Source: Halosimplex rubrum (lineage in GTDB: Archaea > Halobacteriota > Halobacteria > Halobacteriales > Haloarculaceae). From it: a DNA stretch of 64,000 nt. The translations under genes were made by a program, and so were the position numbers. Below, piece by piece: positions 19,178 to 45,601 of the stretch (position 1 is its first letter; every line of letters begins with the position of its first letter). The stretch spans positions 1,674,001 through 1,738,000 of the forward strand of contig NZ_CP058910.1 in NCBI RefSeq assembly GCF_013415885.1, given 5' to 3'. The notes beneath the pieces were generated by a model. The model was given only the letters and a program-made list of their open reading frames with translations. It searched no databases and was not told where the DNA came from.

Positions 19178-20488
19178 TCACGAGCCGGCGGTCGAGATCT
19201 TCGACAGGGCGTCGTAGACCGGGTACAGCGACGCGTAGACGGGATACGGGAGGTTCCGCGCGACGGCCCGAGCCAGCCGCTCGCGGCGCGCCGGGGTGGC
19301 CTCGCTGGCGACCGCGGCCATGTCGACGCCGTCGAGCCACCGGAAGAAATCGGTCGCGCCGTCGACGGGGAACGACCGGTCGAGGTCGACGTGGGCCTGG
19401 ATGTCCTCCCAGTGGAAGCGAGTGTGCTCGTCCATCACGAACGCCGTCCGCTCGAAGGCCGCGCGGATCTCGTCGAGCGTCCGCCGGTCGGCCTCGTAGC
19501 CGAACTCGTTCGGGTCGAGTCCCGCGAGGACGAGCCCGACGATCGTTCGGTAGCACTTCTCGCAGTCGTTGCAGTTGCCGCCGGCGTCGTCGTGGATGCA
19601 CGTCCGCAGCGGGAACCGCTCGCCGGTCTCCTCGACGTACGCGGCGATGCGCTCTATCTTCTTCTGGCGGGTGAGCTCGAACCCGTCGTGGTTCCCGCGG
19701 CTGTGTCCCCAGCGCACCCGGTCGTCGATCGCAGGGTGCGAGCCCCACGGCTCGTCGAATCCCGCTGTGTGGCTGGCCGCGATGTGGACCGTCCCGAGGC
19801 CGAGCGCGTGGGCCAGCGGCGCGCACAGCCCGAGCAGCCCCAGCCCGTGGCCGACGGAGCTGTACCAGGCGCCGTCCACGTAGCGCTTGTAGTGGGCCTG
19901 CAGCATCGGGGTGTCCAGCACCGAGAGGGCGTTCGACCGGACGTAGCGACAGTCGAGCCCGCGCCGGTCGGCGAACGGTTCGACGTGCTCGCGGAACCCG
20001 CGCCAGCGGTCGTCCTCGTCCGGGCCGACGACCCACCCCTGGACGCCGATCAGCGTCGGCTCCGCCTCGCGGTGGCGGACGTAGCTGGCGACGGAGTCGA
20101 CCCCGCCGGTGAACAGCAGGCCGCTGTCGTCGACGGCGTCGGCCGGGCGGCCGTCGGCCGTCCGGCCGACCTCGTCCGCCCGCAGTTCCCCGGGGTCGAC
20201 GAACTCGGGGTACATCCGCGCCAGCGCCTCGCCGACCTCCCCGAGCGCGTCGAGGAACGCCCGGTCGACCGCCGGCGCCGCCACGTCGTCGCCGTTGGCC
20301 CAGGCGACCGGCGCGACGTGGGCCAGCGCCGGGATCGACGCGATCGCGGGCGGCACGTCCGAGATATCGGCGTCGTAGTCGACCCGGACCGTGTCGCCGG
20401 TGAAAAAGCGCCTGAGGTCGCGCGACGGCGTGACCTCGCACTCGACGGTCGACCCGTCGACGGTCGGTTCACCGACGACGACGGTCAT
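19178..20488 (-). CDS. PP-loop ATPase-like protein of unknown specificity
   Basis: A 436-residue protein with a central HUP/PP-loop domain: LLFTGGVDSVASYVRH near residue 125 is a TGGVDS variant of the SGGxDS ATP-pyrophosphatase motif. A downstream cluster GNCNDCEKCYRTI (Cys residues about 325-332) could bind zinc, as in QueC-like and thiouridylase-type enzymes. Conserved AASHTAGFDEPWGSHP precedes it. The N-terminal 115 residues are a beta-rich domain (MTVVVGEPTVDGSTVECEV). Such proteins adenylate a carboxylate or amide, but I do not recognise the subfamily. The start at 20488 (MTVVVGE) omits an Arg-rich upstream extension. Confidence 0.75.
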   Translation of the reverse strand: MTVVVGEPTVDGSTVECEVTPSRDLRRFFTGDTVRVDYDADISDVPPAIASIPALAHVAPVAWANGDDVAAPAVDRAFLDALGEVGEALARMYPEFVDPGELRADEVGRTADGRPADAVDDSGLLFTGGVDSVASYVRHREAEPTLIGVQGWVVGPDEDDRWRGFREHVEPFADRRGLDCRYVRSNALSVLDTPMLQAHYKRYVDGAWYSSVGHGLGLLGLCAPLAHALGLGTVHIAASHTAGFDEPWGSHPAIDDRVRWGHSRGNHDGFELTRQKKIERIAAYVEETGERFPLRTCIHDDAGGNCNDCEKCYRTIVGLVLAGLDPNEFGYEADRRTLDEIRAAFERTAFVMDEHTRFHWEDIQAHVDLDRSFPVDGATDFFRWLDGVDMAAVASEATPARRERLARAVARNLPYPVYASLYPVYDALSKISTAGS

Positions 20489-20660
20489 CGGCGGTCCCAC
20501 CCGCCCGGCTCGCCGCTCGCGCGACGGAGTCGTCTCACCCACTGATTCGCGTGCATGTTCGTCGTGACCTATGGGCGATGCGACGAGGTAGTAAATTCGG
20601 CGCTACCCGCCCGCGTCTACCCGTCCTCGCCGAGGAGAAGCGCTCCATACTGCGCGTAAG

Positions 20661-21933: not shown

Positions 21934-22782
21934 GTGAGTGACGCGGCCCGGCACCCGCGAGTGCTGGACCTGCCTCGGGACGAGACCGGACTGGCGACGA
22001 CGACCGTCGCGCTCAGGCGGCTGCAGGAGCTGTTGCCGGAGTTCCTCGTCGATCTGACGACCGACGCCGACGCCGAGGGGCTGGTCGTCCCGCTGGACGG
22101 CGGGGTCGCCACCGCGACGGCGGCGGCGCTGGCCGTCGACGCGGTCGGCGCCGAGGACGTGATCGGGCTCGCCATGCCCGCGGGGCTGACCGACGAGGCG
22201 ACCGCGCGGACCGCCGAGACGGTCGCGGAGATGCTGGGGATCGACCACCGGCGGCTGCAGCTGCAGCCGGTCGTCGCGGCCTTTCAGGAGACGGTCGGCG
22301 AGGCCGGCGGCCCGGCCGACGACCTCGTGGCGACGGACAACGCCGTCGAGCGGTTCCGGACGGCGACGGCCTACTACTTCGCCAACCGCCGGGAGGCGCT
22401 GGTGGTCGGGCCGGTCGACCGCACGGACCGGCTGCTCGGGTCGGCGACGAAGTACGGCGAGACGGGCGTCGACTGCTTGCTGTTCGGCGACCTCTACGGG
22501 ACGGAGGTCCGCGCGCTCGCCGCGGCGATGGACCTCCCCGTCGACATGCTCGACGGCGACGGCCGCGCGCCGGCGGGCGGCGCGACCGACGCGAACAGGC
22601 TCGACGTCGACGCCGAGACGGTCGACCGGGCGCTGCGACTCCACGTCGACGAGGGCCGGGAGCCGCGGGCGGTGGCCGACCGCCTGGGGATCGACCGCTC
22701 GGTCGTGGCCCGGCTGAAAGAGTGGTGCGCGGCGACGCGACACAAGCGACACATGCCGCCCAAACCCTCGACGAACCGCTGA
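21934..22782 (+). CDS. NAD synthetase-like protein with degenerate PP-loop
   Basis: A 282-residue protein aligning along its whole length to archaeal NadE. It keeps the helix AVDAVGAEDVIGLAMPAGLT, the segment TDRLLGSATKYGETGVD near residue 165, and the C-terminal RLGIDRSVVARL followed by HKRHMPP. However, the SGGxDS ATP-pyrophosphatase motif reads LDGGVATAT (Ser and Asp lost), and the Lys in the later substrate-contact loop (normally LYKxQVR) is replaced (LYGTEVR). It is probably not a functional NAD synthetase and may be regulatory or bind a nucleotide. GTG start at 21934. Confidence 0.8.
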   Translation: MSDAARHPRVLDLPRDETGLATTTVALRRLQELLPEFLVDLTTDADAEGLVVPLDGGVATATAAALAVDAVGAEDVIGLAMPAGLTDEATARTAETVAEMLGIDHRRLQLQPVVAAFQETVGEAGGPADDLVATDNAVERFRTATAYYFANRREALVVGPVDRTDRLLGSATKYGETGVDCLLFGDLYGTEVRALAAAMDLPVDMLDGDGRAPAGGATDANRLDVDAETVDRALRLHVDEGREPRAVADRLGIDRSVVARLKEWCAATRHKRHMPPKPSTNR

Positions 22783-22807
22783 GAGCGGGCCCGGCGCGGA
22801 CCGTCGT

Positions 22808-22917
22808 CGACGGCACCGCTCGTCGGGTGGGACCGTTCGCCGACGGCACTGCTCGTCGGCTGGGACCGTTCGCCGACGGCACCGCTCGTCGACGGCACTG
22901 CTCGTCGGCTGGGGCCG
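22808..22917 (+). repeat. 33-bp tandem repeat, two full and two partial units
   Basis: The unit begins CGACGGCAC, then C or T, GCTCGTCGG and ends in ACCGTTCGC. Full units are at 22808-22840 and 22841-22873, followed by a 16-base partial unit (22874-22889) and a further copy cut off near 22917. It lies between the NadE-like stop and the DUF4129 gene. There are too few units and no spacers, so it is not CRISPR. Confidence 0.7.
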
Positions 22918-44653: not shown

Positions 44654-45601
44654 TCAGACCGTCGGGACCGGTATCTCGTCGAGGACGCTGTCGACGACCG
44701 ACGATTTCTGCACCTCGTCGACGCGGGCGTCGGGCGTGAGGACGATGCGGTGGGCCAGCACCGGCTGGGCGACGCGTTTCACGTCGTCGGGGGTGACGTA
44801 CTCGCGGCCGACCATGGCGGCGCGGGCGCGGGTCGCCTCCAGCAGGCGCTGGGTGCCCCGCGGCGAGACGCCCACCTCGACGCGCCGGTCCTGGCGGGTC
44901 GCGCGGGCGATGGCCGAGACGTAGGTCACCAGGTCGTCGTCGACGCGGACCTGCTCGGGCGCCTCGCGCAGGCTCGTCACGAGGTCCTGGTTCAGCACCG
45001 GCGAGACCGACGGGCTCTGCTCGCTGCGGCCCAGGCGGCGGTGGAGCAGCTCCTCCTCGCCGGCCTCGTCGGGGTAGCCGATGGAACTCTTGACGAGGAA
45101 GCGGTCGACCTGCGCCTCGGGGAGTTCGAAGGTGCCCTCCATCTCGACGGGGTTCTGCGTCGCGAGGACGAAAAACGGGGAGGGCAGCTCGTAGGTGTCG
45201 CCGTCGACGGTGACCTGTTCCTCCTCCATCGCTTCGAGGAGGGCGGACTGGGTCTTGGGCGGCGCGCGGTTGATCTCGTCGGCCAGCACGACGTTCGCGA
45301 ACAGGGGGCCCTCGTTGAACTCGAACTCCCGCTCGCGCTCGTTGAAGACGTGCGTGCCGGTGATGTCCGCGGGCAGCAGGTCGGGGGTGAACTGCACGCG
45401 GGAGAAGTCGAGGCCGAGGGCGGTGGCCATGCTGCGGGCGGTGAGCGTCTTCCCGGTCCCCGGCACGTCCTCCATGAGAACGTGGCCGCGGCCGACGAAT
45501 CCCAGCAGCACGGTCTCGAGGAACTCACGGTCGGCGATGACGGCCGACCCGATCTCGTCGAGGACCCGGTCGCACTCCGCGTTCGCTTCGCTTACGTCCA
45601 T
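44654..45601 (-). CDS. MoxR-family AAA+ ATPase
   Basis: A 315-residue AAA+ ATPase. Walker A is EDVPGTGKT (44-52), Walker B is ADEINRAPPKTQ, and sensor ATQNPVE and the lid with VSPRGTQRLL are all present. MoxR ATPases act as chaperones in assembly or maturation of protein complexes, with DUF58 and DUF4129 proteins as partners. It is convergent with the second DUF4129-DUF58 operon and the only MoxR gene in the window, so it may serve both operons. The ATG at 45601 (MDVSEANAE) is preferred; a start 24 bases upstream is possible. Confidence 0.92.
   Translation of the reverse strand: MDVSEANAECDRVLDEIGSAVIADREFLETVLLGFVGRGHVLMEDVPGTGKTLTARSMATALGLDFSRVQFTPDLLPADITGTHVFNEREREFEFNEGPLFANVVLADEINRAPPKTQSALLEAMEEEQVTVDGDTYELPSPFFVLATQNPVEMEGTFELPEAQVDRFLVKSSIGYPDEAGEEELLHRRLGRSEQSPSVSPVLNQDLVTSLREAPEQVRVDDDLVTYVSAIARATRQDRRVEVGVSPRGTQRLLEATRARAAMVGREYVTPDDVKRVAQPVLAHRIVLTPDARVDEVQKSSVVDSVLDEIPVPTV

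Follow-up and report, generated by a model that had tools for sequence, protein, structure and literature searches.

NadEL, a conserved haloarchaeal NAD synthetase paralogue that has very probably lost its catalytic chemistry

NAD synthetase is a near-universal and essential enzyme, and a gene whose product resembles it overall while lacking its catalytic residues raises the question of what such a protein does. One such gene, which we term NadEL, lies in the 64,000-nucleotide stretch of DNA analysed here (the window), which derives from a 4.48-Mb Halosimplex chromosome whose nearest named match is Halosimplex pelagicum (96% protein identity). A first-pass annotation had described the product as an NAD synthetase-like protein with an altered SGGxDS loop and had proposed a new job for it, such as the sensing of NaAD, NMN or ATP. 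A literature search, incomplete in its coverage, returned no account of a conserved, catalytically emptied branch of NAD synthetases.

The NadEL open reading frame (21934-22782, + strand) begins with GTG and encodes 282 amino acids. It matches the PF02540 NAD_synthase profile with 145 bits (E 2e-42) over residues 36-275 and profile positions 7-242 of 242, and it passes the NCBIfam nadE model TIGR00552 (118 bits versus a cut-off of 63.65), but not the stricter PRK13980 model (178 versus 255 bits). It does not pass the model for the LarE sulfur transferase (TIGR00268, 19.2 bits versus a cut-off of 150). The following features were mapped on the gene:

21934..22782, + strand: NadEL, NAD synthetase paralogue without the catalytic residues, 282 amino acids (PF02540 match, AlphaFold2 model, clade support 99/99, omega)
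22093..22116, + strand: degenerate P1 (PP) loop, residues 54-61, LDGGVATA where canonical NadE has LSGGxDS[TA] (alignment of 42 versus 109 sequences)
22339..22386, + strand: conserved dimer-helix and dinucleotide-site segment, residues 136-151 (N136, R140, R142, Y147, Y148)
22420..22473, + strand: second motif, residues 163-180, with Asp165, Ser170 and Glu176 changed and K173 and D180 kept
22498..22500, + strand: Gly189 where the catalytic Lys (B. subtilis K186) is expected (Lys in 0/42 versus 108/109)
22546..22599, + strand: P2 lid (residues 205-222), its sequence degenerate and its modelled structure poorly ordered (entropy and pLDDT)
22741..22749, + strand: HKR motif, residues 270-272, retained (42-sequence alignment)

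An AlphaFold2 model of NadEL, built from a 45-sequence alignment, reached a pLDDT of 88.4 and a pTM of 0.88, and its top match in the PDB was the Pyrococcus NadE 2e18 (TM 0.79/0.86, r.m.s.d. 2.4 Å), followed by other NadE structures. Together with the full-length profile match, the model bears out the description of NadEL as NadE-like overall, and we are confident that the predicted fold is an intact NadE fold. Residues 209-216 of the P2 lid have pLDDT values under 50.

To compare residues, 42 distinct NadEL proteins were aligned with 109 canonical NadE proteins, with B. subtilis numbering taken from the 1ee1 alignment. At the P1 loop, which in the window protein reads L-D-G-G-V-A-T-A-T from L54, as the first-pass annotation had noted, Ser46 (window position 55) is Asp in 42/42 NadEL proteins and Ser in all 109 canonical ones. 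Asp50 (window 59) and Glu162 (window 165), which we take to be Mg ligands, are retained in 1/42 (versus 109/109 canonical; clade variants E/G/A) and 4/42 (clade residues D/Q/E/R/A) of the clade, respectively. Of the two presumably catalytic residues, Asp173 (window 176) persists in 6/42 proteins and is Glu in the window protein, and Lys186 (window 189), the lysine of the LYK region that was said to be absent, is indeed missing throughout the clade, where R/G/H/W/Q/Y take its place. The Tyr at window position 227, invariant in canonical NadE, is likewise gone, and the consensus of the P2 lid has dissolved (entropy 2.04 versus 1.19 bits in canonical NadE). Adenylation requires the P1 loop, the Mg ligands, the Lys and the lid; since all of these are altered, NAD synthetase activity is very unlikely and, judging from the alignment, NadEL has very probably lost this chemistry.

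The loss extends to the nicotinate side of the site. Window position 170 is S/T/R/A/G in 42/42 NadEL proteins and Y/F in 109/109 canonical ones, and we infer from motif alignment that it corresponds to Tyr525 of human and Trp490 of M. tuberculosis NadE, the aromatic residue stacked on the nicotinic ring (PMC6946656). The segment TKYGETGVD, reported earlier as kept, is present at residues 172-180, and conservation of this region is partial, with Glu for Asp176 and Ser for the aromatic at 170. Loss of the nicotinate contact in every clade member speaks against NaAD or NMN as specifically sensed ligands, and loss of the P1 loop and of the lid, which in NadE closes over the ATP site (PMC6946656), argues against sensing of ATP; these suggested ligands are thus weakened.

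In contrast to the positions that have changed, Gly47, Arg137, Arg139, Tyr144, Lys170, Asp177 and His257 (B. subtilis numbering; G56, R140, R142, Y147, K173, D180 and H270 in the window protein) are retained in 42/42 NadEL proteins, and five of these, R137, R139, Y144, D177 and H257, are adenine-side or dimer residues. Segment 136-151, presumably the dimer helix and dinucleotide site by comparison with known NadE structures, is the part of NadEL most like canonical haloarchaeal NadE (consensus identity 0.69 versus 0.46 overall) and has lower entropy in NadEL than in canonical proteins (0.64 versus 1.05 bits). The HKRHMPP sequence is present at residues 270-276 as described, with H270 in 42/42, K271 in 40/42 and R272 in 42/42 proteins. 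Through the HKR/HKM motif H270 appears to match His648 of the human enzyme, a residue at the dimer interface that bonds to the adenine ribose of NaAD (PMC6946656). The clade also has residues of its own, including D55 (42/42), T164 (42/42) and W264 (41/42).

NadEL orthologues scoring above 200 bits and free of internal stops were found in 36 of 391 sampled Halobacteria genomes, which represent eight genus groups in two families; the named loci include Halosimplex, Haloarcula, Halomicrobium, Natrinema, Halopiger, Natronorubrum, Salinadaptatus and two haloarchaeal metagenome-assembled genomes. When the P1-loop columns and the other catalytic columns were left out of the alignment, the DG-type NadEL proteins (24 non-redundant sequences) were monophyletic in the resulting tree, with support of 99/99. 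Their nearest relatives are L061, on a long branch and with LRGDVDS at the loop, and an SGG-type clade, a placement with weak support (84/62); a clade of DG-type proteins plus L061 was not rejected (p-AU 0.37). L061 (L061:9587-10342) is a NadE paralogue with further altered catalytic residues, and may be an intermediate or an independent loss.

The first-pass annotation had held that orthologues with an intact SGGxDS motif would mark NadEL as a decayed copy, and had called for a search for a canonical nadE elsewhere in the genome and for orthologues with the same replacement. The window genome holds two canonical NadE genes with SGG[VI]DS loops (266 and 251 bits), and canonical NadE is present in every NadEL genome checked. 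All 42 clade members carry D-G at the loop, and no orthologue with an intact SGGxDS was found within the clade. Pairwise dN/dS (omega) values of 0.05-0.47 place NadEL under purifying selection. The two canonical genes, the lack of SGGxDS in the clade and the purifying selection together speak against a decayed copy: NadEL is a functional protein, and its divergence is not local decay. They also support the proposal of a new job, in that the protein is conserved without its catalytic residues alongside canonical nadE.

The genomic surroundings offer one recurring lead, as no neighbour is conserved throughout the NadEL loci compared. A gene for a PF03444 winged-helix (wHTH) protein occurs near NadEL in three NadEL lineages: it lies 59 bp downstream in three Halomicrobium genomes and 1-5 kb away in lineage G230 and two Natrinema genomes, with a gap above 1 kb in both of these lineages. 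It also lies 149 bp from L061, an R-type variant, and about 500 bp away, divergently oriented, in the SGG-type sister clade. It was found beside none of 12 canonical NadE loci, nor at the loci of most NadEL lineages, including that of the window. As genomes carry about two PF03444-type genes each, adjacency to NadEL is unlikely to arise by chance, but the pattern was noticed after looking. The linked wHTH proteins do not form one orthologous group: those of Halomicrobium, Natrinema, G230 and L061 are of type B, and that of the sister clade is a separate branch of type A. The wHTH genes beside the SGG-type loci L064, L065, L068 and L073 encode a candidate regulator of that NadE branch. The type-B homologue of the window genome sits elsewhere, after nuo-like genes; in a Halosimplex locus (L220:2023-7417), nuoA-B-CD-H-I-like genes, named by eye, are followed directly by the type-B gene, and the usual remainder of the nuo operon does not follow.

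Other neighbours proved to be local. Downstream of NadEL in Halosimplex lie DUF4129-DUF7269-DUF58-DUF7519 genes and then mostly an ATP-grasp gene. This run had been taken for a MoxR-associated operon, a designation that fails because the adjoining genes include no MoxR ATPase, the nearest lying at about 45.09-45.48 kb. With the DUF4129-DUF58 run syntenic next to NadEL in Halosimplex only, we rejected it as a partner system; Natrinema versiforme alone shows a different MoxR-DUF58 set near NadEL. The window's only MoxR-type AAA core is the gene segment at 45092-45484 (- strand); the genome has eight strong PF07726 matches, this one included, and a second DUF4129-type gene set starts near 40.4 kb. 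The tandem repeat reported after NadEL is real, with 33-bp units at 22798-22907 between NadEL and the DUF4129 gene; it is also species-specific, since four other Halosimplex lack it or have another repeat in its place, and was discarded as part of a NadEL system. Another PP-loop-like protein (LLFTGGVDSVASY) is encoded two genes upstream of NadEL, at 19178-20542 (- strand); it matched no Pfam profile at E 1e-3.

The Haloarcula gene adjoins 5'-deoxyadenosine deaminase (DadD), beyond which lies a plasmid-borne selenium-dependent molybdenum-hydroxylase cluster; this cluster around an orphan selD has been described, with no mention there of an NAD synthetase (PMC2276186). The deaminase recurs at two Natrinema NadEL loci, with an isochorismatase and a YqcI/YcgG protein. 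In lineage G230 a frameshifted NadEL copy (L230:7458-8775) adjoins a cluster of urate oxidase, hydroxyisourate hydrolase, OHCU decarboxylase and xanthine dehydrogenase-type genes together with the PF03444 wHTH gene. A general link to selenium and molybdenum hydroxylases, DadD or purine catabolism, as these neighbours suggest, was rejected because YqeC, DadD and urate oxidase do not follow the distribution of NadEL and are not encoded in the window genome.

The reading that we favour, tentatively and at somewhat under an even chance, is that NadEL is a haloarchaeal pseudoenzyme that arose a single time from NAD synthetase and acts as a non-catalytic regulator or sensor. On the pattern of conserved residues, it would form a NadE-type dimer whose inter-subunit site binds an adenine nucleotide or the adenine half of a dinucleotide (NAD(H), AMP or similar) with no adenylation, and in some lineages it may work with the winged-helix PF03444 regulator encoded beside it. 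A narrower version, which we think rather improbable, is a module for control of NAD status, in which a dead NAD synthetase either detects an adenine dinucleotide or serves NadE as a capping pseudo-subunit, acting together with a PF03444 winged-helix repressor, the link between the two predating the loss of catalysis. The main regulatory rival holds that NadEL pairs with canonical NadE in a heterodimer, supplying residues of the NaAD site in trans while its own ATP site is dead, and so tunes NAD synthesis. It draws on the unusually canonical and well-conserved dimer-helix segment and the constant presence of canonical NadE; the NaAD site of NadE lies at the dimer interface (PMC6946656), and a dead paralogue in trypanosomatid deoxyhypusine synthase (PMC3663545) sets a precedent. 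However, NadEL stems from the can1 branch, and G016, G184, G041, G064 and G228 retain only the can2 type; we consider the heterodimer unlikely.

PAPS reductases are PP-loop relatives that lost SGGxDS, and the changed loop of NadEL, D-G-x-[VIL]-[EAGD]-[STA], might similarly have been turned to a different reaction with a nucleotide substrate. All 42 proteins have D55 and G56, so the loop is constrained rather than drifting; many of the substitutions preserve charge (D/E, E/D, K/R), K173, R140, R142 and D180 are retained, and W264 is peculiar to the clade. The changes at D55, E/A59 and K/R could be compatible with new chemistry rather than none, which counts against a pseudoenzyme. Yet even within the clade the P2 lid and the Mg ligands have either disappeared or come to vary, which fits loss better than a new fixed site, and a new enzyme seems to us improbable. 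NadEL could also have kept synthetase activity despite its unusual loop, making NAD or, as Francisella NadE* does, NMN. Its TIGR00552 score and the nadE label on Haloarcula and Natrinema plasmids would accord with this. Against this, every catalytic position is altered, the Francisella protein (3fiu) keeps an intact SGG loop, and a milder change of the P1-loop Ser to Asn in Salmonella NadE already raised the Km for ammonia about 70-100 fold (PMC3376133), and we hold continued synthetase activity to be very improbable. A decaying or chance remnant, for which the frameshifted copy in G230 might speak, is scarcely credible given the omega values, the stop-free matches in 36 genomes and the invariant clade-specific residues. 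Among these readings, the pseudoenzyme remains the one we favour.

The distinction matters for annotation. Plasmid-borne NadEL genes (L252:7992-8840, HAH_RS18880 of Haloarcula hispanica, on pHH400, L253:2992-3840 on pNG700 and L254:5965-6819 on pNVE414) are annotated 'nadE: NAD(+) synthase', which is likely a misannotation, and because calls based on TIGR00552 return nadE, NAD pathway reconstructions (those covering the plasmids of Haloarcula hispanica and H. marismortui, for example) include a probable non-synthetase. If NadEL regulates, it would give a lead on how archaea control NAD homeostasis and offer a compact case of an enzyme turned regulator, with an active-looking sister clade for comparison.

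Among known systems, the NH3-dependent NadE enzymes (PF02540; PDB 2e18, 1ee1 and 3hmq) share with NadEL the fold, length, dimer helix, adenine-side residues and HKR tail, whereas NadEL lacks their SGGxDS, Mg-binding Asp/Glu, catalytic Asp/Lys, nicotinate aromatic and P2 lid signature. Francisella NMN synthetase NadE* is likewise a paralogue of NadE whose role has changed but, unlike NadEL, is an active enzyme with an intact P-loop (SGGIDS). PAPS reductase has the same fold class and a modified loop, with no sequence or context link to NadEL seen. Trypanosomatid deoxyhypusine synthase has an inactive paralogue beside an active oligomeric enzyme, as may be the case for NadEL, but belongs to an unrelated family, and a complex of NadEL with NadE is a proposal. 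The SGG-type clade of other haloarchaea, probably the nearest relatives of NadEL although their position is not firm, likewise sits beside a PF03444 wHTH gene and, in contrast to NadEL, keeps its SGGLDS, RSE, LYK and GDG motifs intact.
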